Below are positions 5,759 to 22,247 of a DNA stretch of 64,000 nucleotides, piece by piece. The stretch spans positions 50,180 through 114,179 of the forward strand of contig JAFUFD010000050.1 in assembly GCA_017470055.1 (NCBI GenBank), written 5' to 3'. The position numbers were made by a program, and so were the translations under genes. Position 1 is the first letter of the stretch. Each line of letters starts with the position of its first letter. The notes beneath the pieces are model-generated. The model was not told the origin of the DNA, ran no database searches, and worked only from the letters and a program-made list of their open reading frames with translations. This DNA comes from Prevotella sp. (GTDB lineage: Bacteria > Bacteroidota > Bacteroidia > Bacteroidales > Bacteroidaceae).

Positions 5759-6808
5759 TTATTCTAAAACATATCCATATTCTACACTCCGAATCACCGA
5801 GTCCCTGTTTTCGTTGATACAAATCGCAAACGGGCTATAATGCTTTGTCGGAATAATGAATTTGTACTCACATGGAATAGTCGTGTGGTAACGGTTCCTG
5901 ACTCCCATACTCCAGTTCCCTTTCCCATCCTTTATCACATCCCTACGAATGTACATGTACCCTCTACTATTGCTTAAACCAACGTGCTCGTATTTTGTTG
6001 ATCGTGCGCCTTCAATACTTTGATAGACATTGTAGCCTAAAGACATCGTAGGTAGTAGAAATGCAGCCATCAAAAAGGTCAAGGTAGAGACTACCAATTG
6101 CCGAGATTTGTAAAGCATCCATCCGCAAACTGCGAAGATGATACAGGCACTCGTTATCAGATAAGCAACTCTCTCTCCATCAACCTTGTACTGCGCTTTG
6201 TCAAATACATATAAGCCAATAAGCATTATCGCATATTCTATCCAATAGGGAGTTCTGCCAAGATGTCGGTTCCAGAAATAATATCCCACAACAGGTAAAG
6301 ACATTAAGGCATAGAAAGATAAATACTCTTGCATCTCATAACCAATCAGAAATGCGACGAACAGAGGCAAGGCAATTGACAATAGTAATTTGCCAATGCT
6401 TTCCTTAAATACGATTCCACCAATCAGGTAGTACCACGGATAACCATCGTCTTTAGTCTGTTCTGCAGCATATTGTACAATATAGATAGCCACGGGGATC
6501 AGCCATACCCAATAGATGATGCTTCTCATCAGCGTTCCTGGGAAGGGTGCCATATTTATGACTAAATCATGAAAAGCACCCATATAGATGCAAACACCAA
6601 AGAGTAAAGCAAAAGTCAGCAATGGAATAATCGCCAGTCGCTCTTTCTTATACAATAGCAATGGTACAATGACTCGTAATAAGAGTGCCATGTCTAATAG
6701 CGCACTGACAATCCAGTTCTCGAAGAGCATGGTATGATTGATTGCAAATAATAAGAAACCAAACATCGCCATGTCGAATACATAAAATGCTTTTCTCAAT
6801 TCACTCAT
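5759..6808 (-). CDS. Polytopic membrane protein of unknown function
   Basis: A 349-residue protein with about nine or ten hydrophobic helices through residue 260, then a soluble tail of about 85 residues with charged and aromatic residues (for example VIRSVEYGYVLE at the end). I recognise no family motif. Its start overlaps the stop of the gene at 6805-7212 by four bases, so the two are translationally coupled and probably work together: an exported small protein plus a membrane protein. It belongs to a minus-strand run of small envelope genes (5759-9602) that looks strain-specific. Confidence 0.7.
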   Translation of the reverse strand: MSELRKAFYVFDMAMFGFLLFAINHTMLFENWIVSALLDMALLLRVIVPLLLYKKERLAIIPLLTFALLFGVCIYMGAFHDLVINMAPFPGTLMRSIIYWVWLIPVAIYIVQYAAEQTKDDGYPWYYLIGGIVFKESIGKLLLSIALPLFVAFLIGYEMQEYLSFYALMSLPVVGYYFWNRHLGRTPYWIEYAIMLIGLYVFDKAQYKVDGERVAYLITSACIIFAVCGWMLYKSRQLVVSTLTFLMAAFLLPTMSLGYNVYQSIEGARSTKYEHVGLSNSRGYMYIRRDVIKDGKGNWSMGVRNRYHTTIPCEYKFIIPTKHYSPFAICINENRDSVIRSVEYGYVLE

Positions 6809-7212
6809 TTCTCATCCTCCTTTCCTTCATCGTTATTGTCATCCTTAGGCATGCTAATGGTTATAAATTGATTGTTGACTTCTGCCACACCTATCACGCC
6901 TTTTGTTGCATCTTCATCCCATCCGAAATAGGAGTAATACTCTCCTTCGATTTCTTTTCGGAATGAGAACCATAGATCTTTGTATTCAATCCGTGTTACA
7001 TTCTCCTGTTTTGAGATGTCATAGACACCACACTTTCCATCCCGCCAGACAACACCATATCGGTCGCTGTGTGAACTTACTATCAGACTATCGCATTTGT
7101 CTAATGGTATTTGAGGAACTGGGGGATTAGCAATTGAATCCGCCATCTCATTTTCTTGTGCCACTACATTTGTTGTCAGCAGAATGAGAAATAAAAGTAT
7201 CAATTTCTTCAT
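6805..7212 (-). CDS. Small secreted protein with WG-repeat-like motif
   Basis: 135 residues with a clear signal peptide (MKKLILLFLILLTTNVVAQ). The mature part contains IPLDKCDSLI and YGVVWRDGKCGVYD, the latter resembling one WG repeat. The C-terminus is acidic and lysine-rich. It is coupled to the downstream membrane protein by a four-base overlap and follows the gene at 7230-7799 by 17 bases. A truncated paralogue lies at 8839-9153, sharing IPLEECDSLM and YGVVYKDGKCGI. Function unknown. Confidence 0.7.
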   Translation of the reverse strand: MKKLILLFLILLTTNVVAQENEMADSIANPPVPQIPLDKCDSLIVSSHSDRYGVVWRDGKCGVYDISKQENVTRIEYKDLWFSFRKEIEGEYYSYFGWDEDATKGVIGVAEVNNQFITISMPKDDNNDEGKEDEK

Positions 7213-7229: not shown

Positions 7230-7799
7230 TTAATCCTGTGTCGCTAATAATGCCTTTCCTTCTGCCTCTTTCCGCATCTCATCCAGTTCATTATAGTCCT
7301 GAATGGTCCTAAACTTCACCAAGACCCTTCCTGTTCTGTCAATGAAACCGTAAATATTCACTTCTTCATCATCCGTCATGCCGAAACCATCCTCATCCAT
7401 ATAGTACCTACCATCAGGATTCAGTTGCCAGTCCACCTCCGCTACGCCGTTTTCAAACTTTCTCACAAAAGACGGGAAATGGAAATTCAATTCACGAGCA
7501 AATCTTTTATCGCTGTCCGATAAGTCTGCCAGTGAGTCCCAGTCAATATCATTGGGGGTTACCGTAACCAGTCGCTCTTGCGGATTCATAAACTCGTAAG
7601 CCTTTCTCTCCCGATGATCTAACAGGTAGCGAGGTTTCCAATATTGGTCTATGACCTCATTTACCACGGACATTTCCTCCCCTAACTCGTTCGTCTCAAA
7701 TGGTCGTTTTTGGTACTCCTTTGTGTTTAACTGACCATAAAGTCTTTCTGCAGGACTTTTCCGTCCCATCAGAATGTTTAACAAATCCATCATAGCCAT
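7230..7799 (-). CDS. Hypothetical cytoplasmic protein with WG-like segment
   Basis: 189 residues, no signal peptide or membrane segment. The N-terminal half is charged. Near the C-terminus, YGFIDRTGRVLVKF resembles a single WG-type beta repeat, which may link it functionally to the WG-like protein encoded next. I do not recognise a named family. It sits between a lipoprotein gene (27 bases upstream) and the secreted WG-like protein (17 bases downstream), consistent with one transcript. Confidence 0.6.
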   Translation of the reverse strand: MAMMDLLNILMGRKSPAERLYGQLNTKEYQKRPFETNELGEEMSVVNEVIDQYWKPRYLLDHRERKAYEFMNPQERLVTVTPNDIDWDSLADLSDSDKRFARELNFHFPSFVRKFENGVAEVDWQLNPDGRYYMDEDGFGMTDDEEVNIYGFIDRTGRVLVKFRTIQDYNELDEMRKEAEGKALLATQD

Positions 7800-7826: not shown

Positions 7827-8387
7827 TTATTTTGCTTCAATCTGTAGCATTTCATAAAAACGAGAGTTTTGCCAGTCAAGAGAAAGTCCAAGAGTTTTAG
7901 TCCCATTTACTTTTTGGTACACATTCTGCTTTGGCAGGCAATAATTCCAAGTCAGTTTATCAGGATTGAATACTATCTTGTAGCCATCATTATAATCCGC
8001 AAAACGAAATGTTCGGCCATTATTCACACTATCGGGATCTTCGCCGCTATGGCTATATGCATACCCTTGTTCAAAGGTCATAACCTCCATGGCTTGAAAA
8101 ATTTCTTCGGCAGGATAAAACTTTCTCTGGTGATTGACGTATCGATGTAGTTCCTTTACTGCATTCCATACCTCGATGGACTCTCCTACCTCTGGGTTAT
8201 GGGTCCATATATCCGCTCCATATTCATGATAGAGCGAGTCAAAGTATGCTATAATGTTCCGAACCGAATCCACGTCATAGACACCAGGGTAAACCCGAAT
8301 GTCTTTGGCAGCACTGTCCTTCTGGCTTATCTCTGAACAACTGACAACCAGTAGCAATCCCCAAATATACCAATACAAGTTCTTCAT
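7827..8387 (-). CDS. Putative lipoprotein, unknown function
   Basis: 186 residues from the ATG at 8387. This start gives a good lipoprotein signal (KNLYWYIWGLLLVVSC) with the lipobox Cys followed by SEISQKDS; an upstream start at 8414 would bury the signal. The rest is soluble with many aromatic and charged residues (NDGYKIVFNPDKLTWNYC). No family recognised. Probably anchored to the inner or outer membrane. Confidence 0.65.
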   Translation of the reverse strand: MKNLYWYIWGLLLVVSCSEISQKDSAAKDIRVYPGVYDVDSVRNIIAYFDSLYHEYGADIWTHNPEVGESIEVWNAVKELHRYVNHQRKFYPAEEIFQAMEVMTFEQGYAYSHSGEDPDSVNNGRTFRFADYNDGYKIVFNPDKLTWNYCLPKQNVYQKVNGTKTLGLSLDWQNSRFYEMLQIEAK

Positions 8388-8418
8388 CCGCTTTACGTTT
8401 ATATGATGTACCATTTCG

Positions 8419-8781
8419 CTAATCCTCTATTAGTTCATAGTTTATAAATTCGGGAAACCATCTGTCAAGGATTGCCTCCACCTTATTTTCAATATCTGGC
8501 GTGATATACTTCCTTACTTTAGATATACATACTCCTATCGAACCTATCTCATCTATCCAACCAATCACTGGAAGCCTCTTTGCATCAAGGATGTCAATAG
8601 GCAGTATAAGATATGACAATGTAGATAGTATTAACATCTTATCGGCTTTTGGTGTCTCTTTTGATATGAGAACAAACCAGAGGGTTAATATCGGTCGTGT
8701 GCTTACACGTCCTGCCTTCAGTGCTAATGTGCTGATTCTGTCCCAAAGGACATCATAATTGACAATTCTTGTTCTGCTCAT
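8419..8781 (-). CDS. DUF1232 (YkvA-like) small membrane protein
   Basis: 120 residues. The core KADKMLILSTLSYLILPIDIL followed by GWIDEIGSIGV matches the DUF1232/YkvA pattern (hydrophobic segment, LPxD, then an acidic GxxDD-like stretch). The function of the family is unknown; members are membrane associated. It is 31 bases upstream of the lipoprotein gene on the same strand. Confidence 0.7.
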   Translation of the reverse strand: MSRTRIVNYDVLWDRISTLALKAGRVSTRPILTLWFVLISKETPKADKMLILSTLSYLILPIDILDAKRLPVIGWIDEIGSIGVCISKVRKYITPDIENKVEAILDRWFPEFINYELIED

Positions 8782-8838: not shown

Positions 8839-9153
8839 TCATTGTTCTTTAAAAAAATTATGTTTCCACATTAATAATATACCGATACCACACTTCCCGT
8901 CTTTATACACCACACCATAATGGTCTGTGATGTCACGTGCCATCAAACTGTCACATTCTTCTAATGGTATTTGTGGAATAGGATTAACACTGTTAATCAT
9001 ATCAGTGCTAATCGTGTCTCTCACTTGTGTAGAATCTGCATAGTAGATGACACCAGTCTCTACATCTATAGAATCTACAACTTCAACTTCTTGTGCTAAT
9101 GCCACTAATGGCATCAACAAACACACCGTTAATAATCTCAGAGTCATGTTCAT
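8839..9153 (-). CDS. Truncated paralogue of the secreted WG-like protein
   Basis: 104 residues with a signal peptide (LRLLTVCLLMPLVALA). Residues 70-90 match the paralogue at 6805-7212 (PQIPLEECDSLM, YGVVYKDGKCGI), but right after this block the sequence diverges into GILLMWKHNFFKEQ and stops, where the paralogue continues for another 65 residues. This looks like a frameshift or truncation, so the gene may be dead. Confidence 0.55.
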   Translation of the reverse strand: MNMTLRLLTVCLLMPLVALAQEVEVVDSIDVETGVIYYADSTQVRDTISTDMINSVNPIPQIPLEECDSLMARDITDHYGVVYKDGKCGIGILLMWKHNFFKEQ

Positions 9154-9166
9154 TCCCTATTTGTTC

Positions 9167-9602
9167 TTATTTCCTTACCTTTACCATTGCTTCTTGAGCC
9201 CATTTCATTCTCAATCGCGCTTTTTCTCTCGCTTCGATTGCCTATTTCATTTGCAAGCGAGCCTTATCCGAAACTTCATTAGCTCACTTTGTATAAGTTT
9301 TAGGCTTATTGTATTTCCTGTTTCGAGAATAATAGTCACCCTCGCGAAGATAGCCTTGGGCTTTCTTATTATAATACTCAGCTTCACGATCATCCCCCGG
9401 CTTTCTTTGTATAGTACTCAGCCTCGCGCATATATTCTTTAGCCTTTTCCATATAGTATCCATCTTGAGATGACGTGAACAATTCATAATTCACCCATGA
9501 AAATGGAGATAGAGCTATAGAGCTCAAAGCTTTCGTATCTTGTATAGATGAGATATAAACTATAATGAATATAATAAAATACAATATCTGTTTCATGCTC
9601 AT
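9167..9602 (-). pseudogene. Decayed gene for a secreted coiled-coil repeat protein
   Basis: The ATG at 9602 begins a signal-like helix and then a repeat of the type EKAKEYMREAEYYTKKA. A frameshift near 9390-9400 moves to another frame that continues the same repeat (REAEYYNKKAQGYLREGDYY). Further down, a third section reads DKARLQMK-stop-AIEAREKARLRMKWAQEA and ends at 9167. Three sections of one repetitive, Lys/Glu/Tyr-rich coiled coil separated by at least two lesions indicate a pseudogene. Family not recognised. The 195 bases between it and the next terminator hold no gene I can support. Confidence 0.6.
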
Positions 9603-10298: not shown

Positions 10299-10509
10299 TA
10301 ATTATTTATATTTATTAAGATCCTGCAATTAAATCAAATAGTATTCATATAACAACAAAGAAAATACATGAAATTTTTCAATGCGCGACTTTTTGAAAGG
10401 AATAGATACGAAAAAATAACAATTTGAACTTAGGAGACATCGGACAGTTAAAATAACGACAAGAAAATTGCACTGTTCGTGACATTTTGCAATCATAAAA
10501 CAGCACTAC

Positions 10510-12018
10510 TTAACAAAATATTCGACAACATAAATCCTCAAAATTCATTCTTTCATCTTTATCCCTAAACTGTTTCATCTCTTTATCTAGAAGTTTCTCC
10601 TCTTTATTGAATTTGATATAAACAACATCTTTACAAGAAAAATTTACCACTGCTTTATTGTCCACAACTGCAACATGATATGCTGCGGGTATATCTTTTA
10701 GTTTTTGTGCTATTCTTGAGACATCAGTGGCTATTCGCCCTTTTCCATCATACAAATCTCCTTCGGCATTTTCTTTTACCATTGTATATATGGAAGCAAA
10801 TACCTTTTCAACATCCGTCTTAAATGTGGTTTTTCTTTTTGTGGCCCGATTAACTGGGACCCCCTTTTTGTATGTTGTAAATATAAGCACCAAAAGATAT
10901 AGACACATTTGCTTATTACTCAATGAGAATGTCATTGTTCGTCTTTCATCAAAAACAAATTGAACCTTCTTGTTTCCATAAGAGAAATCAAAAAGAACTT
11001 TTGTCAATTTTTCTGTGTTTAAGACATGAGACATGACAAAATTCAAAAATGTTCTATCAAAACCATGCAGCCTAAAGGGGCGACCGTGCAGTTTTCTTTC
11101 AGGGATGTGTAAATCCAACGTATATTCCTGATATTTGTTTAAAGCTTTTCTAAGCGTGTTTGATATTGATTCTTCAATTGGAATTAAAATGAAATTTGAT
11201 TTCTTCCTCGGTTTGTCTTCTGCTACTACCGAAGTGCTTATTTTCATTAAAAACGATGGGATAAGATTTGTATATAACTTGGCTTTATCAGAAAACAAAT
11301 CTTTAGCAAAATCTTTTGTGGCAATATTATCTATATTATCTACTATTTTCTGTGCATCTTGATCCTCATATTTGTGGAACGGGCTAACATAGCGCATTAA
11401 AGACTTAAGTTTACGTTGCTCTCGCTTTTCTTTAAGATAAGAACATACTTTTGGAATATAAATTAAACGCATACCAAAAAGTTCAAGTTGTGATTTGTAT
11501 TCTCCATAATGTTCTTGCATTTCTTCATATATCTTATAGTTTTCATTATTGTTTTCTAAATATATTATTTCCGACCTTGCAAATCTGTATTCGTTTTTTT
11601 TTATAGAAAAAACAATAGCGTTACTGTTTAGAGCGTATTCTATTGCTAAGAGAAGCCAAGCCTCACTTAGTGAACAGTGACCTTCGATTGTAGTATAACT
11701 CTTATTCTTTTCTACAATTCTTCCAACGCCAGATATAAGTTTCAACTCTTCTATCAAACATTTTACTTCATTTTTATTATCCCAATTCTGTAGTATCTGT
11801 AAAGCATCACAGAAGGTTATTCTGTTCACTTCAAAACCTCTTTCTGGATTACTTAGCCCATACTTGTCGTTAAGTAAACCATCCATTATATTTAACTCTC
11901 TATCACTAACATAACCGTCAGCGCCTACGATATCAAATATTAGTCTTGCTGCTGCGATACAAAATTCTTTTTTCATTTTTAATAATTCATTTAAGATATA
12001 GCGAATTGTTACAGTCAT
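10510..12018 (-). CDS. TerB-like domain protein, last gene of the dynamin-like operon
   Basis: 502 residues. An N-terminal helical segment (about 20-50) contains GADGYVSDRELNIMDGL, the acidic ADGxVSxxE pattern seen in TerB-like domains, which are often fused or linked to stress and membrane systems. The remaining 450 residues are mixed alpha/beta without motifs I recognise, ending in Cys-rich DLCCRIFC. The start ATG overlaps the stop of the dynamin-like gene upstream by four bases (ATGA), so it is coupled to it; an internal Met (residue 15) is an alternative. Probably a cytoplasmic partner of the GTPases. Confidence 0.7.
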   Translation of the reverse strand: MTVTIRYILNELLKMKKEFCIAAARLIFDIVGADGYVSDRELNIMDGLLNDKYGLSNPERGFEVNRITFCDALQILQNWDNKNEVKCLIEELKLISGVGRIVEKNKSYTTIEGHCSLSEAWLLLAIEYALNSNAIVFSIKKNEYRFARSEIIYLENNNENYKIYEEMQEHYGEYKSQLELFGMRLIYIPKVCSYLKEKREQRKLKSLMRYVSPFHKYEDQDAQKIVDNIDNIATKDFAKDLFSDKAKLYTNLIPSFLMKISTSVVAEDKPRKKSNFILIPIEESISNTLRKALNKYQEYTLDLHIPERKLHGRPFRLHGFDRTFLNFVMSHVLNTEKLTKVLFDFSYGNKKVQFVFDERRTMTFSLSNKQMCLYLLVLIFTTYKKGVPVNRATKRKTTFKTDVEKVFASIYTMVKENAEGDLYDGKGRIATDVSRIAQKLKDIPAAYHVAVVDNKAVVNFSCKDVVYIKFNKEEKLLDKEMKQFRDKDERMNFEDLCCRIFC

Positions 12019-13928
12019 TCATTATCCGCTTTTTCTGCTCGTGAGCTATTCAACATATCTGTTACTTTATGGAAATAGGACAACTCTTTTTTCTGTTGAC
12101 TCCTTAGTAATGCATTTTGGTTCTCAAATGTTTTTATTTGCTGCATAAGATCTTTTACCAATTTTACATTTGTTGCTGTAGCTTTTGTGTTACACTTATC
12201 TAAATATTGTTTAACGCAAGCATAAAATTGACTCACCAAATTTCTTAATGGCTTTTCAACAGATTTTAAAGATTCTGCTTTTGCTGCATTAAACATTCTA
12301 ATGCGTCTATTTCTGTTTGACACCCATGTTGATTCTGTCGCAGCAATAGCTACTGCTCTATATGTGGAATATACAACTTCATTTTGAGTTACCGAGAGAC
12401 AAATGTCACAATCAAAGCAGGCTTCTTTGTCAAAAAATATATTAAAATCATTTTCGGCAACAAATACCTTTATTGATTCTTGTATTTGAGATTCCACATT
12501 ATATATAATTGGATATAATTTATCTTTCAAATACTGAATAGTAAGGTTTACAAATGGGGAAAGAGACTCGAGCCTTGCATATCGATAGTCCGTCATGGAT
12601 TTGAATACATTCAACTTTAACGACAATATGTCTTTTTCTAAGGCAAGGTAATCTCCTACGCCAAACGAAACCTGATTGACAAGGGCTTTTTTTAGTTTTT
12701 CTTCCCAATCAGCATTCACGCTTTGGGAGAAATCATTATACAAATTATTAGAAAAACTATATATCTCATTGTAAAGTTTCTCAAACATTAGGTTTATTGA
12801 AGCTATAATGTCTTGGTTTGCCTTTATGTTTTTATTTGTTTCTATGATCTTCAAAGAAATAACATTAATAAGGTTGTCAAATTCAGATTTTCTAACAGCC
12901 ATCATTTCTGATAGTTGCAATTGACTTTTCTGTAGTTGTTTATTAATAGCTTCCTTTCGTGAAGCATCAGCATTTGCATTTACATGTTTACAGACATCAT
13001 TCATTATTTGAATGAACCCACTACGCTCTTGATAGTTTATGCCTTCATGATATTCTTCATAATCTGTGAAGCCATTTGCAAATTCTTGGTAAAGCGATGA
13101 AACTTGGAAAATTCTTTTTGATGAAAATTCTTTTGCGCAATTAGCTTTATTTAGGATGTCATCCATTTTTAATTTAACAAATTGCAACACTTTGTCTCTT
13201 TCATTCTTCTTTACAAGGTCAATACGATTTATACACAAGAAAAAATCATCATTATCTGGACAAAGATAAGTAGATATAAATTCTTCGTCTTTATCTGAAA
13301 GGCCTCGCTCTCCACATATATAAATGATAGCAATAGAATCCCTAATTGACGCAATGGTTTTTTCGTTATCCCTTTCATGAGCCGATAATCCTAATGTGTC
13401 AACAATGCATAAATTATTCTCTTTTAGGAATTCCGACTTAACATACATTACAGCATCAACAACATTCCTAAATCTCCGAATGTCTCCAATATCCATCCTC
13501 TCGTGGAAATCATCGAGATTAAAAGCAGAAAATGCCATAAATGCGTCATACGTCATTTCTTCCTCACTACCATCATTATACCTTATTATAACCTTTGGCT
13601 TATTCCCATACTTTATTTTTGTGATTATAGCTGTTGTTGGATTAGCAGAGACAGGCAATATCCTATCCCCTAAAATCGCATTTACAAAAGTGCTCTTGCC
13701 AACAGTAAAGTCACCTATCACACCTATTGTAAATTCTTTATTATTTGCAGCTGTGTAAACTTGATGTATATTCTCCGCAATTTCTGTGACAGCTTTTTGA
13801 TATTGGTCAGAAAACGATTGTGGGTATCTACGAATAGATGCAAGAATTGCATTGTCATCGTACTTGATATTTGGAGCTTCTCCAAACAGTCTGCTAAAAG
13901 CGTTTATTAGTTTGTCAAAAAATCCCAT
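12015..13928 (-). CDS. Dynamin-like GTPase (second intact copy)
   Basis: 637 residues. GTPase motifs are complete: P-loop GDFTVGKST (72-80), switch I NPTTA (96-100), G3 VDTLG (176-180), G4 NRID (234-237). A long helical region follows, as in bacterial dynamin-like proteins, without a clear hydrophobic hairpin; an amphipathic N-terminus (MGFFDKLINAFSRLFG) may bind membrane instead. Around residues 501-507 is a CFDCDIC cluster that could bind metal or form disulphides, unusual for the family. It lies 68 bases after the two-helix membrane protein gene and overlaps the TerB-like gene by four bases. The presence of several dynamin-like proteins suggests hetero-assembly, as known for some paired bacterial dynamins. 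Confidence 0.85.
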   Translation of the reverse strand: MGFFDKLINAFSRLFGEAPNIKYDDNAILASIRRYPQSFSDQYQKAVTEIAENIHQVYTAANNKEFTIGVIGDFTVGKSTFVNAILGDRILPVSANPTTAIITKIKYGNKPKVIIRYNDGSEEEMTYDAFMAFSAFNLDDFHERMDIGDIRRFRNVVDAVMYVKSEFLKENNLCIVDTLGLSAHERDNEKTIASIRDSIAIIYICGERGLSDKDEEFISTYLCPDNDDFFLCINRIDLVKKNERDKVLQFVKLKMDDILNKANCAKEFSSKRIFQVSSLYQEFANGFTDYEEYHEGINYQERSGFIQIMNDVCKHVNANADASRKEAINKQLQKSQLQLSEMMAVRKSEFDNLINVISLKIIETNKNIKANQDIIASINLMFEKLYNEIYSFSNNLYNDFSQSVNADWEEKLKKALVNQVSFGVGDYLALEKDILSLKLNVFKSMTDYRYARLESLSPFVNLTIQYLKDKLYPIIYNVESQIQESIKVFVAENDFNIFFDKEACFDCDICLSVTQNEVVYSTYRAVAIAATESTWVSNRNRRIRMFNAAKAESLKSVEKPLRNLVSQFYACVKQYLDKCNTKATATNVKLVKDLMQQIKTFENQNALLRSQQKKELSYFHKVTDMLNSSRAEKADNE

Positions 13929-13996
13929 AATTGTAGTTCATAGGATATATGAACTGGGGCAATAGTGGAACATATCGTTTCTATTGCCCCAGAATA

Positions 13997-14512
13997 TCAC
14001 GAAAGTATCTTTTTAATTTCTATTAGATGCTCTTCAAATTGGCGCCGGTAAAAATCAACGACCTGTTCGTCAAAGTTGGTATTTTTGTTCTTAAAAAGAG
14101 ATTGACATGTATACCACGTTAATACTGCTGTACCGATGGAAAATACAGCTTTACTAACGAATCCCATGTCAGTTATCCAGTCAAGAAAACAATAGCAAAT
14201 AGGCAGTGACAAGGCTGTTATCACATAATGACCCACTTGAGATGGTTTTGATTCATTATGCTCACGAAGCCTTATACTCATAATATATGTTTTGAATTTT
14301 CTAGCTACTTCTGGGCGTTCTTCTTCCAATTGCCTATACCATATGTATGGCGCCAACTTCCCATCAAACCATTCTACAGAAGAACTTCGAAAATCTCTAT
14401 TTACGACTGAAATGTCAAAAAATCCATTTTCAAGTTGACGGCGTACCGATGACAACGTCTCTGATGTTATTGTGCTCCAACGTTGAAGGAATAAATCCAT
14501 ATTTGCTTTCAT
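13997..14512 (-). CDS. Two-helix membrane protein of the dynamin-like operon
   Basis: 171 residues. Soluble N-terminal half, then two hydrophobic helices (around YVITALSLPICYCFLDWI and AVFSIGTAVLTWYTCQSLF) and a charged C-terminal helix. Both ends are predicted cytoplasmic. It starts two bases after the stop of the upstream dynamin-like gene, so it belongs tightly to that partner and may be its membrane anchor or receptor. No family recognised. Confidence 0.7.
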   Translation of the reverse strand: MKANMDLFLQRWSTITSETLSSVRRQLENGFFDISVVNRDFRSSSVEWFDGKLAPYIWYRQLEEERPEVARKFKTYIMSIRLREHNESKPSQVGHYVITALSLPICYCFLDWITDMGFVSKAVFSIGTAVLTWYTCQSLFKNKNTNFDEQVVDFYRRQFEEHLIEIKKILS

Positions 14513-14514
14513 AA

Positions 14515-16659
14515 TTAAAACGATTCAAATTGCTGTAAAGATAATTCTTTCCCAAATACTACAGAATAAGCTTCATTTGCCTCGTCATAAATTGTAGACA
14601 AAATTGTTCTGAAACGAGTCTTCTCTGTGTCAAGATTAAAATTGTGATCAGAAAAAGCCGCATTTATTGTTTCCATTTTTTTCTCTTCGTCACACAATTT
14701 TTGATTCATTTCTTCACTCTTTTCATTTTTCTTCTTGTTAATCTCAACGGCTATCTGTTTGTTTAGAGTATTGCATATCTCAGAAGTTTGTTGGCGAATA
14801 GTTCGCACAATATCATCCTTAGAATTTGAAAGAATTTTCTTCACGGTGTCATTCTTATTGCTCTTTCCTTGCATGTATTCAATGAGCAAAGCCAATATCA
14901 CACCTAATCCACCGTCCACCAACGAGAGGAGTACAAATTGCCACACGGTGTTAAAAATTGTTTTTTTTAGAAATTCTACCCATGAGGCTTTACCATCAGT
15001 GGCACCCTTTATTGCAGCACTAAAATCCCCCAAATAGCCAGAAATCAATATCTGAAGCCAGTTTTTATCAGACTCAGATATAGATGTATTTTTCCCATTA
15101 GTAATTTTCTTAGACAAATCCTTAAATAAGGATTCCGTACTGTCCAAAGAAATGTTCAAATGTTTCTGGCAATCTTTTACCTCTTGGTCTATAACGGTTT
15201 TATTCTCTGCCAAATAGTTGTCAATTTTTTCTACAAAATAATCGGATACAACTGTTATAAATTTGCCAGAGAATTCTTCCATACTTTTCCGTTTTGACTC
15301 TTTACTAGATAGTGGATTCATCTGTTTTAGTCCAGTCCACATATATTTCAATGTACCCACATCTACTTTCTGAGCCAAATCAATCATATCTTGTTCCCAA
15401 GATCTATCTATAGAAGCCGAACAACCGTTAAGCACATCGGCAATTTTATTTTGGATCTTCAGAGAACAATTATCAAAGGTTGCCTCAGTCAACTTGATAC
15501 TTTTTTTAATATCGGCAATAATTTGTGCACATTCAGCCTTCTGTTCAGAATCCAATTGTATTTCATTTTCATATGCACTAATATAATCCTCAATCTGCAC
15601 ACTTGCGTTTCGATAAGTGGAAGCCATTTGCGAAAAACATTTTTGATACTGTGCTATACATTTTTCGTCAGTTGTGAGAAAATGCTCTAATTCTTTTTCA
15701 AACTTGTCGAATCCACTAAGTTCGAATCTTCTCTTACATTCATCTACAGAAAGTGGTCTTTCCTCATCTAAATCATTATCATACGTCATACCCCGACGGG
15801 CATCCAATGCGCGTAAAGCACTTATTCCAAACATACGGCTTTGGCAGAGTTCTTCATGGTAATGCCCATCTTTATCAGTGAAAATGGGCTTTAAGTCTAA
15901 TTTGAGTTTCTCCATTACATTATCTCTTTCATCCCTTTTGACAAGGTCAAACTTGTTGAGGAGGAAGAATATATTATTAGGGCAATCATGAAAAACAGAA
16001 GATATATAATCCCTATCGGTTGTTGTACAGCCTCTACCTGTAACAACATATATCATGGCTTGAGCTTCTTGTGCAATCTTCATAGCCAAATCTGTAGCAA
16101 CCTTTTTGTCTTCTAATCCAGGAGAATCTATGATGCTTACCCCACCTTCCATTAAAGGTTTTGAACAATACATCACAGAGTATTTCACTTTGGCAAAACG
16201 CTCTATTGTCCCCGTTGCATCAAATTCTTTTTGGTCTTCTATTGTATATTTATATTCTTCCTGAAAATCTTTCACATTCATGCGAATACATTGCCCTTTT
16301 TTCACATGGCCATCCTCTAAAATCTCATCAGCCATAAACACGTCTGCACAGTCTTCCTCTGTACCATATTGTATGAAAGTAAGAATTGCAGTACTTGGCA
16401 AAGCGGCTTCTGGAAGAATCTTAGAGCCAACAAGTGCATTGATAACTGTACTTTTACCACTAGCAAAAGTACCAATAATGACAACCTTAAATAGACCATC
16501 ACGAACAGCTTTTGCTTCTTCATTACACTTATTCTGTTCAAACCCCATTTCTAGGCCTTTAATTCCATTGGCAACCCCAATGTTGTTGGTGCCAGCTAAC
16601 GAGCCAATGTTTATTAAACTCGTCATCAATTTTTGTTGTTTCTCTATGCTGTAAGCCAT
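14515..16659 (-). CDS. Dynamin-like GTPase (first intact copy) with membrane hairpin
   Basis: 714 residues. P-loop GTFASGKST (63-71), switch I LPSTAIL (87-93), G3 DSPGLED (178-184), G4 NKFD (235-238). A long helical stalk follows. Residues about 567-597 are hydrophobic (TVWQFVLLSLVDGGLGVILA), at the place where bacterial dynamin-like proteins have a membrane-inserting paddle. A charged coiled-coil region closes the protein. Bacterial dynamins tubulate, fuse or repair membranes; this role is inferred. The gene follows the pseudo-GTPase gene by five bases and precedes the two-helix protein by two. Confidence 0.87.
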   Translation of the reverse strand: MAYSIEKQQKLMTSLINIGSLAGTNNIGVANGIKGLEMGFEQNKCNEEAKAVRDGLFKVVIIGTFASGKSTVINALVGSKILPEAALPSTAILTFIQYGTEEDCADVFMADEILEDGHVKKGQCIRMNVKDFQEEYKYTIEDQKEFDATGTIERFAKVKYSVMYCSKPLMEGGVSIIDSPGLEDKKVATDLAMKIAQEAQAMIYVVTGRGCTTTDRDYISSVFHDCPNNIFFLLNKFDLVKRDERDNVMEKLKLDLKPIFTDKDGHYHEELCQSRMFGISALRALDARRGMTYDNDLDEERPLSVDECKRRFELSGFDKFEKELEHFLTTDEKCIAQYQKCFSQMASTYRNASVQIEDYISAYENEIQLDSEQKAECAQIIADIKKSIKLTEATFDNCSLKIQNKIADVLNGCSASIDRSWEQDMIDLAQKVDVGTLKYMWTGLKQMNPLSSKESKRKSMEEFSGKFITVVSDYFVEKIDNYLAENKTVIDQEVKDCQKHLNISLDSTESLFKDLSKKITNGKNTSISESDKNWLQILISGYLGDFSAAIKGATDGKASWVEFLKKTIFNTVWQFVLLSLVDGGLGVILALLIEYMQGKSNKNDTVKKILSNSKDDIVRTIRQQTSEICNTLNKQIAVEINKKKNEKSEEMNQKLCDEEKKMETINAAFSDHNFNLDTEKTRFRTILSTIYDEANEAYSVVFGKELSLQQFESF

Positions 16660-16664
16660 AATAA

Positions 16665-18311
16665 TTAAATATATTTATTTATTATATCGATTGTTTCTGC
16701 TGCATGCGCCAGACGCTCTTTTTCTTTATTTAAAGTATCACCTATTGACCCTATAACTTCATCATAATAATTCATTATTTCGTTATGGAATTGTTCTGCC
16801 ACCATCGTGAAATTACGGTCAGATTGACGAATTAGTTCCTCTTTATTGCATTCAATCACATCTGATATTTTTTCAGCTATTACTTTTTTATATTCATTAT
16901 CAATAGACTCCTTTCCTGCAATCTTAACCAATTCAGATGCTAGTACTGCAACCAATCCGTATGGAGTAAAAATAGTAGCCAAAAGACCGCCAATGGTTAA
17001 TGCATCGGTTAAACCGTTTCCAGAACTGGTCTTACGTGCAAAGAATGTATGTACGCTGTATGCAGAATCAAGTTTTTCTTTAATATCACTTTTAATCTCA
17101 AAATTGCGAATATTACGCGTGATATGTCGCAAATCAAGATTCATCATATCAATCAACATAGATGCCTCACGTTCAAACTCACTATATAACTCTAAATTCT
17201 GATATTCAGAAAACTGTTCCCAAATTGCAGTTAAATACCTTGGTAAAGCACGCGAATCTTGCTTAATATTTGTAGATATCTGGATATCTTCTTTTAATGA
17301 GTTTTTTAATAATACTGTAAACTGTTCCACAGCAGTACGATACTTTGCAACAAGTGGACTTTCTAAAAACAGGCTTATACTGCTTTCTAAATGATTCCTA
17401 CTCTCTATAAGCATATTCTGGTCCATTTCTACAGCAGAGGCATCTGCACTTTCTGTATCAAGACTTCTTTCCAACTCTGACTTTAGGTTGATAAGGGCTG
17501 CTTCAAGTACAGACGATTTATAGGCATCCAAATCTTCGAAATGAGCTTTGCGTAAATCAATTAGATTCTGATGTACGTTACTCAGGATTAAATCTATCGT
17601 CAAATCGCTTTCAGGATAACGACTGCGGCGTTCATTTGATAATTCTTCTGTGAAAACAGGAAATACAATGTATTTTTCATCAATTTGCATATGTACTCGC
17701 GCAACAGCATCAGTCCATTCTGCGGATTTTATATACTGAGCATTACCTATACCAAACACCAAACGTGAAGGGGAATAGAAAGGAATTACATGAGAGTGGA
17801 TGAATTCCTGCTCGCCTGTATATAAAAGATGATTAGCACTAAGAATAAGAATAGTCTTGTCTGATTTTAACATCAAATATCGCCAAGTATCATTGTCGAT
17901 ATATTTGTATTCAGGAGTATAAATAAGAGTTAAACTCATATTCTTAAGTCTTTCAATAGGAACTTCCATTGAACATTCTATATCTTTTAAGCTTGAGATA
18001 AGTGCTTTCTTCAACAAATCGTCATTAACAGCCAACTCTCCATACTCTGTCAAGATAGTGCACCCAGAGTTTCCGTAACACGCTTTTAGTTTAAACACAC
18101 GATCTGATTGTAGACGTGCTTCTATTCCTAAATTCTGAGAAAGCAAACATTCTGCGACTTCTTTAACAGTCGTCACAAATAGCAAATTTATCTCTTTGTC
18201 CTGATCAATTTGCAAATCCTCTATTAATTTGTCTACAATGACATATTTAGTCAGACCTAAGTCTTTAGCCAAAGCCAAAGACTCTGCTCTTGTTATATTC
18301 TTCTTCAGCAT
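16665..18311 (-). CDS. Dynamin-like pseudo-GTPase
   Basis: 548 residues that align by eye with the two GTPases of the operon, but with the nucleotide motifs lost. INLLFVTTVKEVAECLL (41-57) sits where the others have a P-loop, with no GxxxxGKS. LTLIYTPEY (127-135) replaces the G3 DTxG/DSPG, and VFGIGNAQYI (185-194) replaces the N-[KR]-x-D of G4. The spacing between these blocks is kept, including the helix IHSHVIPF-like element that in the GTPases precedes G4. Residues about 435-465 (ALTIGGLLATIFTPYGLVAV) form a hydrophobic hairpin as in the membrane paddle. I read it as a non-catalytic dynamin homologue. The ATG at 18311 lies six bases after the M48 gene stop. Confidence 0.75.
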   Translation of the reverse strand: MLKKNITRAESLALAKDLGLTKYVIVDKLIEDLQIDQDKEINLLFVTTVKEVAECLLSQNLGIEARLQSDRVFKLKACYGNSGCTILTEYGELAVNDDLLKKALISSLKDIECSMEVPIERLKNMSLTLIYTPEYKYIDNDTWRYLMLKSDKTILILSANHLLYTGEQEFIHSHVIPFYSPSRLVFGIGNAQYIKSAEWTDAVARVHMQIDEKYIVFPVFTEELSNERRSRYPESDLTIDLILSNVHQNLIDLRKAHFEDLDAYKSSVLEAALINLKSELERSLDTESADASAVEMDQNMLIESRNHLESSISLFLESPLVAKYRTAVEQFTVLLKNSLKEDIQISTNIKQDSRALPRYLTAIWEQFSEYQNLELYSEFEREASMLIDMMNLDLRHITRNIRNFEIKSDIKEKLDSAYSVHTFFARKTSSGNGLTDALTIGGLLATIFTPYGLVAVLASELVKIAGKESIDNEYKKVIAEKISDVIECNKEELIRQSDRNFTMVAEQFHNEIMNYYDEVIGSIGDTLNKEKERLAHAAETIDIINKYI

Positions 18312-18317
18312 GAGTAC

Positions 18318-19244
18318 TTATTTTAGGACTGTTAATAATTCATCTATTTTCTCTTTTAAAACACTGTCTGGCAAAAGATTCACTCCAGGCAAAACCTCTT
18401 TACCAGTTACCCGATAATAAAGTTCCGACTCATTGAAATATTGTAGAGCTTTTAAACGCTTGGGAGTAAGTGGATGGTCGAGCAAATATTCTTGCATGGC
18501 ACCAAGTTTCATGTTTTCTAAACTCTCAAGTGATTGATCTATATAAGTATCCAAATCCACATTAGAGACATTGGCAAACGAACTTTCCAACTTCATTAGT
18601 GCTCGCTGAGCTGTACGCAAATCTCCGCAACATAAAAATCCGGCACGGTCAGCCGTTATCTCTGAATATCGTGACCACGTTGCTAATGGTAGATTAACAA
18701 CCTGAACAAGCATGGGACCAATAACGGGAACAAGTTGACCTAATTGTGTCAGTTGCCTACCAATCATATGGTAAACCAGATGCTCCATTGCCAAATGGCC
18801 ACATTCGTGGCCAATAATAAAAGTCAACTCTTCTTTTGTCAACAAATGAGTACTTAAATCGCTTATTAACAAATAAGGATTATCTACAGTACCTGATGCA
18901 TATGCATTGATGCCTGGCATACGTGAAGAAACAACTCCGTGGGGAATACTTATTCCAAGAGTCTTACAACAATGGCGAAGAATTCCATAGATTTCGGGAA
19001 AATTGTTTGCATCAATAACAATACCACTGCTAATTTCAGTACCACTTTGTAGATTTACCAGTAAATCTGCAAGTTTGTTCATTGCTTTCTGCACATGGGT
19101 AGCCTCCAAAGCTTTGATTACGGTTGAATCAATATTGTGGGCAAACTCCATACGTTTGCCATACAAGCTGCCGGTGTTTTCCCTCTCAGCTTGGATAAAT
19201 TCAGCCAAGGAAGGATAACTTTTGTTGTTGAAATTTAAATTCAT
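18318..19244 (-). CDS. M48-like metallopeptidase 3 (soluble)
   Basis: 308 residues. Zinc motif HECGH at 146-150, third ligand Glu195 in SEITADRAG, then LCC-GD. This is the M48 (HtpX/Oma1-like) arrangement, but the four-helix membrane part of HtpX is missing; only a moderately hydrophobic stretch (163-185) between the motifs may touch membrane. The N-terminus is helical and charged. It is the third of three tandem relatives, overlapping the second by four bases (ATGA type). Substrate unknown; related peptidases control membrane-protein quality or process dynamin-family proteins in mitochondria (Oma1 and OPA1), a tempting but unproven parallel. Confidence 0.82.
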   Translation of the reverse strand: MNLNFNNKSYPSLAEFIQAERENTGSLYGKRMEFAHNIDSTVIKALEATHVQKAMNKLADLLVNLQSGTEISSGIVIDANNFPEIYGILRHCCKTLGISIPHGVVSSRMPGINAYASGTVDNPYLLISDLSTHLLTKEELTFIIGHECGHLAMEHLVYHMIGRQLTQLGQLVPVIGPMLVQVVNLPLATWSRYSEITADRAGFLCCGDLRTAQRALMKLESSFANVSNVDLDTYIDQSLESLENMKLGAMQEYLLDHPLTPKRLKALQYFNESELYYRVTGKEVLPGVNLLPDSVLKEKIDELLTVLK

Positions 19245-20065
19245 ATATCACTTCTATTTATAATATTATTATATCTCCCACTGTCTTCCCAATTTAATAG
19301 CTCCGCTGCTCTCATTACCGTCCAAGGATGATTTGAGTCTGCAATGCAAAATAGTTTTACAAACTTATTCATTCCTTCAAAATCCAACATTTTAAAATCT
19401 CGAGCTTGTCTGATAAAGGACTCACAATTAATGTTTTTGTATTCATTAATAGGTAAACCTGCAATTTTAATGAATGAACGAACTGCAGCATCTTTGTCTT
19501 GACAGCAAAGTAGTCCTGCGCGATCAGCAGTCAATTCTGACATCCTGTCCCAATAGCAAAGGGAATACTTAAAACCTGTAGAAAGCAAAGCTGCTCCAGG
19601 AATCTCTTCTATAATGATATCTACTAACTGGGCCATCATGTGATATAACATATGATTGGATTTTATATGCCCAAGTTCATGACCTAGAATAAACAGCATC
19701 TCATTTTCATCACACAAATCAATTAAACCAGAGTTAATAACCACAATTGGCTTTTTTGCCCCAATTGTACATGCATTTATGTCATAGTCCCATTGCAAAT
19801 ACAAATCTGGAATGTTGGATATGTCAAGAATCTTGCATGCGTACAAAAAGCAGTCATATACTTTCGGATAGTTGTCTACTGAAACTTTTAAATTTGAACC
19901 AGTATATTGAATAGTGTAAACACGCTCTATTGTATTTTCGGTAATCCAAGAAATAGCTTTCTTTAGAAAAGATGCTTTTTCCAACTTTTCTAATGCGGCT
20001 CTGTCAAATGGATGCTCATATAATGAGTGATTAAGCCCCGTCAATATTTGTTTATTTCTAACCAT
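19241..20065 (-). CDS. M48-like metallopeptidase 2 (soluble)
   Basis: 274 residues. HELGH at 129-133, Glu177 in SELTADRAG, then LLCCQD. The N-terminal 60 residues diverge from the other two. All catalytic residues are present, so it should be active. It overlaps the upstream M48 gene by eight bases and the downstream one by four. Motif conservation with low similarity elsewhere suggests an old duplication rather than a recent one. Confidence 0.82.
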   Translation of the reverse strand: MVRNKQILTGLNHSLYEHPFDRAALEKLEKASFLKKAISWITENTIERVYTIQYTGSNLKVSVDNYPKVYDCFLYACKILDISNIPDLYLQWDYDINACTIGAKKPIVVINSGLIDLCDENEMLFILGHELGHIKSNHMLYHMMAQLVDIIIEEIPGAALLSTGFKYSLCYWDRMSELTADRAGLLCCQDKDAAVRSFIKIAGLPINEYKNINCESFIRQARDFKMLDFEGMNKFVKLFCIADSNHPWTVMRAAELLNWEDSGRYNNIINRSDI

Positions 20066-20861
20066 TTTTCATTCCAGAATTAATAAAATAATTCAATTCT
20101 TCTAAACGCAATTCCTTGGATGGATATGATTCCATAAGTTCTTTGTATTGGGAGAATGCTGTGACATGCCTTTCAAAAGGCAATTTTGCAAAAAGATTCT
20201 CTATACACTTAATATCTCTGCAGCAAAGATAACCGGCTCTGTCAGCAGAGAATTCTGAAGATTTATACCAGTTGTTTAACGGAACTTCGATAAAATCAGA
20301 AATAATGCCACCAAGGATTTCAGAACGTTTATTCAAATCTAAGAGAAGTCCTTGAACGGCATGGGCAATTAAATGTCCAAACTGAACATGACCTAATTCA
20401 TGACCTAAAAGGAAACACTGTTCATTACCACTAAGAAGTGAAACTGAATGATAACTAAGCAATATTATTGCCTCTTTTTTGAGTTCTACACCCAAAGCAT
20501 TTATACCTTTTAGTTGTGATGTTATAAAGACTTTTGGAGTAAAATCAATTTTGAGGACATTGCAACAATGCTGATAATTGCTCCATAGTATAGGATAGTT
20601 TGAAGGATCTAATTGCGAATCATTTCTTGTTATTTCTTCCAATTGTTCGCCATAGTATTTGTTTATGATGCTTTGTAGAGTTTGTTGAGTATATTTGTTT
20701 TCAAGAATTGTTTCAAGGTAATTGTCACATGGATAAGCATAATCTGGTTTCTTAACGAGTTTGGCTAAGCCAACTCGTTTCTGTACTGCATCGGCAATGT
20801 TGCAAAAATTACCTACGGCATCAAAAAATCTTTTATATGTCTTATTCTGTACGCCTTGCAT
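20058..20861 (-). CDS. M48-like metallopeptidase 1 (soluble)
   Basis: 267 residues. HELGH at 154-158, Glu203 in SEFSADRAG, then YLCCRD. Cysteines are frequent (CC at 99-100 and in the conserved LCC motif). First of the three tandem M48-like genes, 12 bases after the anti-sigma-like gene. With a sigma/anti-sigma-like pair directly upstream, one peptidase could act in signal-dependent anti-sigma cleavage, although in known systems that step is done by other protease families. Confidence 0.82.
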   Translation of the reverse strand: MQGVQNKTYKRFFDAVGNFCNIADAVQKRVGLAKLVKKPDYAYPCDNYLETILENKYTQQTLQSIINKYYGEQLEEITRNDSQLDPSNYPILWSNYQHCCNVLKIDFTPKVFITSQLKGINALGVELKKEAIILLSYHSVSLLSGNEQCFLLGHELGHVQFGHLIAHAVQGLLLDLNKRSEILGGIISDFIEVPLNNWYKSSEFSADRAGYLCCRDIKCIENLFAKLPFERHVTAFSQYKELMESYPSKELRLEELNYFINSGMKNG

Positions 20862-20873
20862 ATACCAAGAATC

Positions 20874-21209
20874 CTAATTACTATTTTGAACTTCGTCCCC
20901 AAAATTTAATATCCTATTCAGCCTTTCATCTATTAAACCTTCTATTGCTTCACTGGAAAGCTGATGATCAACTACCGTTCGCGGAGCAAATGCTGCTGCC
21001 GCATAGGCTATATCGGAAAACGATTGTTCTATACGCACTGGAGAAAGATTCTTTGATGGATTCTCTTCAAAATCACTTTCATCCAATAAGGCAAGAACAA
21101 TATCCTGAACCTCAGGGTGAATCACCATATAGTGCAAAACCTCTTCACGTTCTTTTCCAGAGAGTTTGCCCTCAACGTAAGCGGCTATGATTTCTTCTGT
21201 TATTACCAT
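20874..21209 (-). CDS. Anti-sigma-factor-like protein
   Basis: 111 residues. The N-terminal EEIIAAYVEGKLSGKEREEVLHYMVIHPEV resembles the helical anti-sigma domain of zf-HC2 type proteins (AAYLDGELS-EER pattern) but lacks the HxxxCxxC zinc ligands. The rest is low in structure, with no membrane helix. It overlaps the sigma-factor gene by seven bases, the classic arrangement for a sigma/anti-sigma pair. It may be a soluble anti-sigma factor; identity is moderate. Confidence 0.6.
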   Translation of the reverse strand: MVITEEIIAAYVEGKLSGKEREEVLHYMVIHPEVQDIVLALLDESDFEENPSKNLSPVRIEQSFSDIAYAAAAFAPRTVVDHQLSSEAIEGLIDERLNRILNFGDEVQNSN

Positions 21210-21877
21210 TTAAACTCCTTTTTAAGTTCTTTAATAATGACTCGAATCTCATCCTTAGCCCTACCTTTAAGCATGTGCATATACTCCGCAGTTGGTAATA
21301 TATCAATGGACTCTCCATTGACCTTTTTGGACTTAAGACGACCTTCACGTCTTCGGTAGTTCTCCAATTGTTTTGCAATTTCTTTGGGCTTGTACCCATC
21401 AAACTCTCGCAAAAGGATGTATCTCATATCTTTATCTTCAAGTAAATGGATTGCCTCAATTAAGAGCACCATATGAATATCATTCTCATGAGGCGATTCT
21501 GGCTCTGAGGGATTAACCTCGTTATTATCGCCATCTTCACCTATAGAGACCGTAAATTTACTAATTCCTATCAATTCCGGCATTTTTTTTATAAATAAGT
21601 TACCGGCAACAACTCCTAGCCATGTTCCAAAACTAGACCTCCAACCAAATCCGCGCAAAGCATGAAAGTCTTTTGTCTTAAGTAATATCAGAAGTTCTGT
21701 TTGCAATTGTTCAAGGAAATACAAATCGGCATAATATCTAACACACAACTTCTTTAGAAGAGGCGAATACCTGTCAAATATCAGATAAAGCAGTGCCTCT
21801 TCATTGCCATCTAAAATTAGTTCGACTAATTTCTGATCATCTAAGCCATTATAATTATATTGATATGCTATATGCAT
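21203..21877 (-). CDS. Sigma-70 family (ECF-like) RNA polymerase sigma factor
   Basis: 224 residues. The N-terminal half has a region-2 pattern (DQKLVELILDGNEEALLYL, FDRYSPLLKKL, then WRSSFGTWLGVVAGNLFIKK). Around 138-170 lies a region-4-like helix-turn-helix (LLEDKDMRYILLREFDGYKPKEIA). A linker of about 25 acidic residues separates them. The last 50 residues (RRREGRLKSKK...) are longer than in a minimal ECF factor. As first gene of the operon it likely directs its own transcription. The start ATG at 21877 is preceded by a large structured leader. Confidence 0.72.
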   Translation of the reverse strand: MHIAYQYNYNGLDDQKLVELILDGNEEALLYLIFDRYSPLLKKLCVRYYADLYFLEQLQTELLILLKTKDFHALRGFGWRSSFGTWLGVVAGNLFIKKMPELIGISKFTVSIGEDGDNNEVNPSEPESPHENDIHMVLLIEAIHLLEDKDMRYILLREFDGYKPKEIAKQLENYRRREGRLKSKKVNGESIDILPTAEYMHMLKGRAKDEIRVIIKELKKEFKW

Positions 21878-21907
21878 GTATAGTTTCTATTTAAATATAT
21901 AAACGCA

Positions 21908-22247
21908 GAAAGTCCCACAACGTCTGTTCGGAAACAGAACGTTGAGGACTTTCTTTCATATCCCTTTAGCCCTATTGGGCTCCCTATGTCTTTAAGCACA
22001 AGCGGAACTTCCATATTTGCTCTTTGCTTTAGCGGTTAGTACTCTTGTTAATGGCATTCTACACTAACCTCCCTGATACAGAGAAAGCGCAGACAACTGC
22101 CATATCTCTCACCAGGTTCAGCACGACCCCAAGTATACTATGGATGAAGCCTACGCTTATAAAACGTGCTTCAACGTATACTTGGTTTTGCTCGATAATT
22201 TCTCTTTGACGAGGTGCTGATTCGGTGAGAGAATTTGAGCAAATATG
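21908..22247. ncRNA. Structured RNA-like region upstream of the sigma-factor operon
   Basis: Nested inverted repeats: closing stem 22012-22022 with 22237-22247 (11 bp, CATATTTGCTC); a hairpin GGTTAGT 22034-22040 with 22063-22069; a long arm made of TCTCTCACC 22105-22113/22224-22232, TCAGCAC 22118-22124/22214-22220, CCAAGTATAC 22129-22138/22176-22185 and GAAGC 22146-22150/22168-22172. Outside are hairpins AGCCC 21968-21981 and GAAAGTCC...GGACTTTC 21908-21953, the last about 30 bases before the sigma-factor ATG. No coding frame fits. It is either a long 5' leader of the operon (minus strand) or a separate RNA; I cannot fix strand or family. A 6S-like, tmRNA or RNase P identity could not be supported. 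Confidence 0.55.

Follow-up and report, generated by a model that had tools for sequence, protein, structure and literature searches.

Among described bacterial systems, LeoABC of enterotoxigenic Escherichia coli, whose components are named LeoA, LeoB and LeoC, has tandem dynamin-like GTPases, which are reported from a genomic island (PMC4159319). DynA of Bacillus subtilis is a bacterial dynamin for which an anti-phage, lysis-delaying, membrane-surveillance role is reported (PMC8844932). Regulators that stay constant while their effectors vary are also an already known theme. This theme is shared by the GTPase-centric DO-GTPase/GAP1 systems of Kaur et al. 2020 (PMC7159879), and the EACC2/caspase systems couple an extracytoplasmic function (ECF) sigma factor to a peptidase and variable domains (PMC8195603). 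The present work concerns a ten-gene operon of Prevotella sp. that, like LeoABC, encodes tandem dynamin-like GTPases, and that, like the EACC2 systems, places an ECF sigma factor beside peptidases. It lies at positions 10510-21877 of a 64,000-nucleotide stretch, referred to here as the window, which covers forward-strand positions 50,180-114,179 of contig JAFUFD010000050.1 in assembly GCA_017470055.1.

The operon belongs to a modular family in which a sigma factor, an anti-sigma factor and a peptidase form a “head” that recurs in dozens of Bacteroidales loci, while the effector “tail” is swapped. By the definition of this family the window is a member, since it has a sigma factor of the subfamily, an anti-sigma factor, a peptidase and an exchangeable tail. 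We lean towards the view that the operon is a sigma-switched conflict operon, probably directed against phage, in which proteolysis of the anti-sigma factor would free the sigma factor and the sigma factor would drive dynamin effectors at the membrane. With doubt and confidence nearly in balance, and doubt a little ahead, we also propose that the operon is the dynamin-armed member of an undescribed Bacteroidales immune class, in which a soluble anti-sigma factor, with a peptidase either as its fusion partner or as a separate companion, would serve as a proteolytic tripwire and an ECF sigma factor would switch on exchangeable effectors, namely dynamin pairs, TIR-STAND, RyR, Hsp70/DO-GTPase and kinase/PP2C/vWA.

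A recurring head with exchangeable tails

All ten open reading frames were located on the minus strand, with the sigma gene first, and the junctions in gene order measure -7, 12, -8, -4, 6, 5, 2, 68 and -4 bases. An earlier note on this DNA had described a tightly packed ten-gene unit in AT-rich surroundings, and the coordinates and the gaps (-8 to +68) agree with that description. The spacing of the genes supports a single transcriptional unit. Guanine and cytosine make up 34.8% of the bases of the operon, compared with 48.9% of those of the window once positions 3701-23037 are excluded. The operon is probably controlled by its own sigma factor.

The sigma/anti-sigma pair named in the same note is borne out by profile comparison and alignment. 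Taken alone, the sigma protein (224 amino acids, 21203..21877) falls below the Pfam cut-offs, and its match to TIGR02937 (E 5e-9) is also below cut-off. A profile built from 12 rows of its subfamily does find solved ECF sigma factors, with E 2e-7 against RpoE 1or7 over both domains (positions 7-187 of 194), and it is through this profile that the sigma-2 and sigma-4 domains, present in order, place the protein among the ECF sigma factors. The subfamily stands apart from generic ECF sigma factors in the tree: with 16 subfamily and 9 generic rows, the split between the two is supported at 99/96, and L133, L135 and L136 form long branches whose placement is unsure.

The row nearest to the window sigma is L147 (69% identity over 197 columns), and the window sigma clusters with L147, L148, L134 and L150 (support 92/94). 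Within this group the peptidase is M48 in the window, L147 and L134 and C39 in L148, with none recognised in L150, and the tail consists of dynamins in the window and L148, of a weak dynamin with kinase/PP2C/vWA in L134 and of other genes in L150; the sequence of L147 ends inside its first M48 gene, and its tail is unseen. Two side observations concern members of this group. L148, a draft assembly, has interrupted sigma and anti-sigma frames (462-1500) and a run of unknown residues in its second dynamin (4406-6094), and L150 has, downstream of sigma and anti-sigma at 12198-16268, genes that by eye resemble type III CRISPR effector subunits, a putative assignment.

The anti-sigma gene (111 amino acids, 20874..21209) overlaps the sigma gene by 7 bases. 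Its product is soluble, with no hydrophobic segment, and has a ZAS-like N-terminal domain, encoded straight after the sigma gene, that aligns across 14 loci; alone it gives a weak match to zf-HC2 (E 0.011). The zinc motif HxxxCxxC, kept in the relative L130, is absent in the window protein, which has no CxxC. The short SFSDIAYAAAAFAP linker of the protein is conserved in L147, L134 and L150, and L236 and a piece of L148 also retain a recognisable version; the linker is a candidate cleavage target, switch site or regulatory contact.

A three-sequence sigma profile searched in 295 genomes of the order found, beyond its seeds, ten places in nine genomes with E-values from 2e-60 to 5e-17, all other matches being 3e-14 or weaker. 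The ten neighbourhoods have the same head, whole or partial, and different tails, which contain M48 with TIR and nSTAND1, RyR, a membrane protein (read as TrkA-N-like, a reading that Pfam did not confirm), vWA, Hsp70 and dynamins. A scan of genome contigs with sigma alignment A3 gave the five loci L147-L151, with a sigma 67% identical in L147; of these, L149 was judged to be the same place as L134 and L151 was dropped as a weak match; the same alignment matched nothing in viral contigs. At the family level, the 12-row sigma profile matches 63 of 369 genomes at E <= 1e-20, own genome included, not all of which show the head. Sixty of the 79 sigma places found outside the window were fetched, the 19 omitted being mostly weaker and a few near contig ends, and adding the window and 15 loci collected before brings the set to 76 loci. 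A protein family was counted when it gave a match at E <= 1e-4 no more than 16 kb from the sigma and on the same strand, or, for the anti-sigma, at 1e-3 no more than 1.5 kb away.

In these 76 loci the anti-sigma was found in 50, C39 in 42, M48 in 16, either peptidase in 52 and any of the three in 61, counts which are not independent at the seed loci, since the profile seeds come from counted loci. C39 and the anti-sigma domain are fused in one protein in 29 of the 76, and the peptidase is therefore tied to the anti-sigma. Tail families comprise dynamin (11 loci), RyR (17), TIR (7) and STAND (5, all beside TIR). Greedy gene calling over 72 loci gave slightly lower counts. All 11 dynamin loci carry two or more dynamins, and 8 of 73 loci are of this kind once the window is set aside together with the two loci to which dynamin matches had led. 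Matches to the second dynamin of the operon occur in 4 of the 60 family loci against about 0.02 expected from the order-wide rate, an expectation that is rough, as it assumes a mean genome of 3.45 Mb and sets side by side searches made by different methods in different taxa.

Control loci selected by other means lack this arrangement. None of nine loci around generic ECF sigma factors has the anti-sigma, C39, M48 or a counted tail family; a tenth, L146, in which the sigma was not recovered, was omitted and held one dynamin-profile match. Twelve loci selected by M48 have M48 alone, with no anti-sigma, C39, dynamin or subfamily sigma in any of them. Sixteen loci selected by dynamin have no M48 or C39; beyond dynamin, they give a single match to Hsp70 and a single one to the sigma, both weak. 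These sixteen are what is left of 20 regions after the removal of L086, L088 (= L136) and L089, which have the head, and of L095 (3.3 kb); because head-bearing loci were removed, this control bears only on M48.

The sister loci illustrate how the tail is exchanged. Among the 20 regions around matches to the second dynamin, L086 and L089 have a homologue of the window sigma just upstream, and L088 was recognised later. L086 encodes the sigma, an anti-sigma fused to a C39-like domain (just below the Pfam cut-off), a dynamin, a weakly dynamin-like GTPase and a dynamin, while in L089 the sigma and an anti-sigma with C39 (above cut-off) are followed by a dynamin, Hsp70, two DO-GTPases (one above and one below the Pfam cut-off), a 441-residue protein and a dynamin; L242 has a DO-GTPase match by in-house profile. 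L236 has sigma, anti-sigma and the first two M48 genes in the order of the window, with a tail of kinase, vWA, PP2C and further genes, and L134 has the same head with an inserted lipoprotein, followed by a weakly dynamin-like protein of 836 residues, DUF4407, vWA, PP2C and kinase. The check for co-occurrence of all ten genes that had been suggested earlier thus succeeds for the order of the first four genes, which is kept in L236 and L134, and fails for the rest, the tail being exchanged and no ten-gene unit being conserved. The composition of the window operon recurs in one other examined genome, at L234, which encodes the sigma, the anti-sigma, a 166-residue protein with two hydrophobic stretches, an M48 peptidase, a 484-residue protein with no recognised P-loop, three Dynamin_N proteins and a DUF697 membrane protein.

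Other features of the sister loci were observed in passing. The kinase/PP2C/vWA genes under a sigma/anti-sigma/M48 head (L134 10362-14620, L236 11641-15780) are another effector type. TIR and STAND stand behind the sigma head in L128, L130, L198, L206 and L209, and RyR is present in the same five loci, in four of them within the C39 anti-sigma protein. A protein of about 87-110 residues, of no assigned family, recurs in L127, L128, L196, L200, L209, L235 and L238, mostly right after M48. In L237 a 309-residue protein with an HECTH motif (9271-10200) lies behind the dynamin pair and is putatively a third metallopeptidase type.

Peptidases, tail proteins and the proposed switch

Each of the three HExxH peptidases claimed for the operon is matched by Pfam M48 above the cut-off (E 1e-8, 1e-21 and 6e-23), and each has an intact HExxH with an E-x-x-ADRAG stretch downstream, read from the sequence, as in family M48. 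M48a (267 amino acids, 20058..20861) has relatives in L236 (3e-67), L134 (4e-54) and L147 (4e-65, the cut piece), M48b (274 amino acids, 19241..20065) in L236 (2e-123) and L134 (1e-113), and M48c (308 amino acids, 18318..19244) resembles the M48 protein of L234 (5e-15). M48c matches 40 of 395 genomes of the phylum, own genome included. Used as an anchor, it gave 12 fetched regions around its matches, none with a second operon member, and it matches nothing in viral contigs. Plasmid matches are distant for both M48c (41 records) and dynamin 1 (8 records), and the three such records examined showed no neighbourhood like the operon.

Two intact dynamin-like GTPases had likewise been predicted, and two are found: dynamin 1 (714 amino acids, 14515..16659) and dynamin 2 (637 amino acids, 12015..13928) match Pfam Dynamin_N above the cut-off (E 1e-20 and 4e-22). 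Both have G1, G3 and G4 sites, which are of standard form in dynamin 1, whereas dynamin 2 has the variant forms DTLG and NRID. The closest solved structures are the bacterial dynamin-like protein 2j68, nearest to dynamin 1 (E 7e-24), and mitofusins; a dynamin profile matches 2j68 at 1e-51, covering 55-674 of 695, and 5owv at 1e-28, so that both the Dynamin_N domain and the helical trunk of the superfamily are present. Dynamin 1 has a strong hydrophobic segment (575-593), a tip or paddle candidate, which dynamin 2 lacks. Dynamin 2 matches 33 of 393 genomes of the order, own genome included.

The remaining tail proteins are less easily placed. The 548-residue protein (16665..18311) has no P-loop and no G1 motif and has a hydrophobic segment at 440-458; the match to dynamin behind the earlier label of pseudo-GTPase is weak (hhalign E 0.0022, probability 13%; with a pair profile 0.0068, probability 6%), and it is possibly a degenerate dynamin. 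Its hydrophobic segment and that of dynamin 1 could be membrane tips. It was found in its own genome only among 199 relatives and in no phage or plasmid record, searches of the L147 genome did not find it, nor any M48 besides the cut piece, and it gives a weak BLASTP match (E 0.011 over 258 residues) to the 484-residue protein of L234. The 171-residue protein (13997..14512) has two moderately hydrophobic stretches, with hydropathy peaks of just 1.47 and 1.18; the 166-residue protein of L234 is a possible analogue, with no sequence similarity between the two. The 502-residue protein (10510..12018) had been labelled TerB-like, and its N-terminus gives a weak match that lies below the cut-off (Pfam TerB 13.2 bits against 24.4, E 0.11); no homologue was found, the protein occurring in its own genome only among 295 genomes of the class and in no plasmid, and it shows no resemblance to the 382-residue protein of L234.

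On the basis of these predicted functions, a mechanism may be proposed. In the resting cell the anti-sigma would hold the sigma factor. A trigger, either phage or a membrane insult, would activate the peptidase, which is M48 in the window and C39 fused to the anti-sigma elsewhere, and which would act as the release switch by cutting the anti-sigma, perhaps at the linker. The freed sigma factor would then transcribe its own operon, and the two dynamins would assemble with the 548-residue and two-helix proteins at the inner membrane and change its shape, with the outcome either that damage is sealed and lysis delayed, as reported for DynA, or that the infected cell is killed.

Several observations weigh against a sigma-switched conflict operon with a common head. 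Fifteen of the 76 loci have no head partner at all; nine of these are weak sigma matches (above 1e-26) and three have less than 8 kb after the sigma, while L219, L224 and L231 combine a strong sigma score and 17 kb of sequence with no head partner. L237 and L239 have dynamins and an anti-sigma with no recognised C39 or M48. Only 3 of the 20 fetched dynamin regions of the order lie behind the head; the 16 others do not, and most dynamins are elsewhere. The linker motif is missing from the anti-sigma of L234, a sister of like composition, the 548- and 502-residue proteins have no clear relatives, and PADLOC gives partial matches only (LeoA 2.5e-16 on dynamin 1, LeoBC 3e-14). Lastly, the sigma of L086 has no match among plasmid or phage records. 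A subfamily boundary near E 1e-26 was considered and withdrawn, as L136, L240, L242, L246 and L251 are weaker yet have head partners.

The absence of mobile-element matches for the L086 sigma is also a point in favour of the alternative that survives best, in which the operon serves envelope-stress repair: the sigma factor would answer membrane damage and the dynamins would patch or remodel the membrane, with no anti-phage role. ECF sigma factors often respond to envelope stress, and the membrane-surveillance role reported for DynA (PMC8844932) fits repair as well. The sister tails, however, contain conflict-type modules under the same head (TIR, nSTAND1, RyR, DO-GTPase, kinase, PP2C and vWA) rather than repair functions, the restriction of the 548-residue protein to one genome among the relatives searched is not what repair would suggest, and the base composition of the operon is foreign. 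The stress or defence role that was first suggested is plausible in either form, and repair alone we regard as possible but doubtful.

A further suggestion was that the dynamins are substrates of the M48 peptidases, as OPA1 is of Oma1. Both are present in the window operon and in L234 (and in L134, with its weak dynamin), and three M48 copies seem beyond the need of a sigma switch. The pairing is not upheld by the wider set of loci, where the 11 dynamin loci divide into 2 with M48, 7 with C39 and 2 with neither, and where 14 of the 16 M48 loci show no dynamin at the threshold used. Five of these 16 have less than 10 kb after the sigma, and with these five set aside the figure is 9 of 11; counting the weak dynamin of L134 changes the proportions to 3 of 12 dynamin loci with M48 and to 13 of 16 and 8 of 11 M48 loci without dynamin. 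Moreover, none of the 16 headless loci selected by dynamin matches the M48 profile. Processing of the dynamins is accordingly unlikely. The peptidase is assigned to the head: it travels with the sigma and anti-sigma rather than with the dynamins. It is very improbable that the M48 peptidases are themselves effectors, as proteolytic toxins with the dynamins as a second effector and a sigma switch triggered otherwise, since, for all that the copies are multiplied (three in the window, three in L134, four in L236) and no fusion of M48 to anti-sigma was seen in the loci examined, M48a and M48b follow the anti-sigma in the window as well as in L134 and L236 (M48a also in L147, which ends there) while the tails differ, and C39 is so often fused to the anti-sigma.

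If the sigma-switched conflict reading is true, transcription control by way of anti-sigma proteolysis would serve generally to turn on conflict systems of Bacteroidales, and paired bacterial dynamins, whose functions in the cell are mostly open, would gain an inducible and testable context. The common head is a simple search key, in that the genes behind a sigma of this subfamily are likely to be an effector set.

Downstream genes and flanking elements

The unit may be longer than ten genes, because several genes at 5759-9602, all on the minus strand, recur in sister sigma loci. A broken gene for a secreted protein of YYxxxAEGYxRDAEYY repeats (9153..9602) starts about 0.9 kb past the last operon gene and has open relatives in L135, L136, L221, L228 and L239; the repeat protein is counted by profile in 6 of the 76 loci, window included. 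It is followed by a DUF1232 protein (8419..8781), with relatives in 10 other sigma loci and a profile count of 10 in the 76, window included, by a lipoprotein-like gene (7827..8414) with a weak relative beside the anti-sigma in L150 (5e-6), by a protein with a sub-threshold WG-repeat match (7230..7799), which has relatives in 6 further sigma loci, among them L230 (8.5e-52), by a small secreted-like protein (6805..7212) with a relative in L232 (6e-10), a locus without a recognised head partner, and by a membrane protein (5759..6808) with relatives in L210, L221 and L231. No relative of these downstream genes was found in the nine generic-ECF control loci. The protein at 8839-9153 has no relative in other loci, its sole match being the paralogue at 6805-7212. 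A housekeeping-type promoter sequence, read by eye, precedes the downstream genes, which may therefore form a second unit. An open reading frame for a glycine-rich protein of 52 residues (10039-10197, minus strand) has a Bacteroidetes-type promoter sequence upstream, and no relative was found in other loci.

Upstream of the operon, at 21905-22290 on the minus strand, lies an RNA-like stretch of very high stability (z -7.9), with a hairpin of terminator type a little before the sigma gene. A 170-base relative (71%) is found in locus L173 of the same genus, and Rfam gives nothing at the gathering level and chance-like matches below it. The stretch looks like a chromosomal non-coding RNA, and a structured RNA as part of the system was rejected, as the relative is in a same-genus genome without the operon. 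Inverted repeats of 38 bases, 89% alike, lie at 22785-22822 and 22982-23019 with about 160 bases between them; the region has a partial relative in L133 near 18048 and resembles the remnant of a miniature inverted-repeat transposable element between the operon and the gene at 23038. This neighbouring gene (23038-23550, luxS by eye) is present in 14 of 30 relatives. No clean empty site was found: four relatives were fetched, in which blastn detected no operon DNA and the gene order differs, and their genomes have no match to the 548-residue protein. Further along the window, a tandem run of large genes at 45790-55646 (minus strand) looks by eye like several PAS-type histidine kinases.

Comparison with known systems

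No description of the sigma/peptidase/dynamin combination was found in open-licence PubMed Central among the matches listed (titles and starts of abstracts), subscription papers and preprints being outside this scope, and within these bounds the search agrees with the earlier note that the composition is undescribed. The nearest named dynamins are well separated from those of the window: NCBIfam DLP_LeoA scores 21.3 bits against a cut-off of 325, which places them outside LeoA/LeoBC, and NCBIfam DynA scores 41.5 bits against a cut-off of 1600, which places them outside DynA as well. DynA has two GTPase heads within one protein. The Nostoc dynamin 2j68 (BDLP) and the pair 5owv, from Campylobacter, belong to the same fold family as the window dynamins and are not known to stand under a sigma/peptidase head.

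The systems that share the regulatory theme differ in their parts. The DO-GTPase that is central to the systems of Kaur et al. 2020 is present in the sisters L089 and L242 and, by Pfam, absent from the window, and the words dynamin, M48, C39 and ECF occur 0 times in the portion of that text available (PMC7159879). The EACC2 systems use a caspase and TPR, with 0 occurrences of dynamin, anti-sigma or C39 in the accessible part of the source (PMC8195603). A similar distribution is seen for the kinase/PP2C/vWA triad, which is found in the tails of L134 and L236 and is absent from the window by Pfam. This triad is that of TerY-P. The class as a whole, in which modules of these kinds stand under a common head of sigma, anti-sigma and peptidase, looks undescribed within the literature searched.

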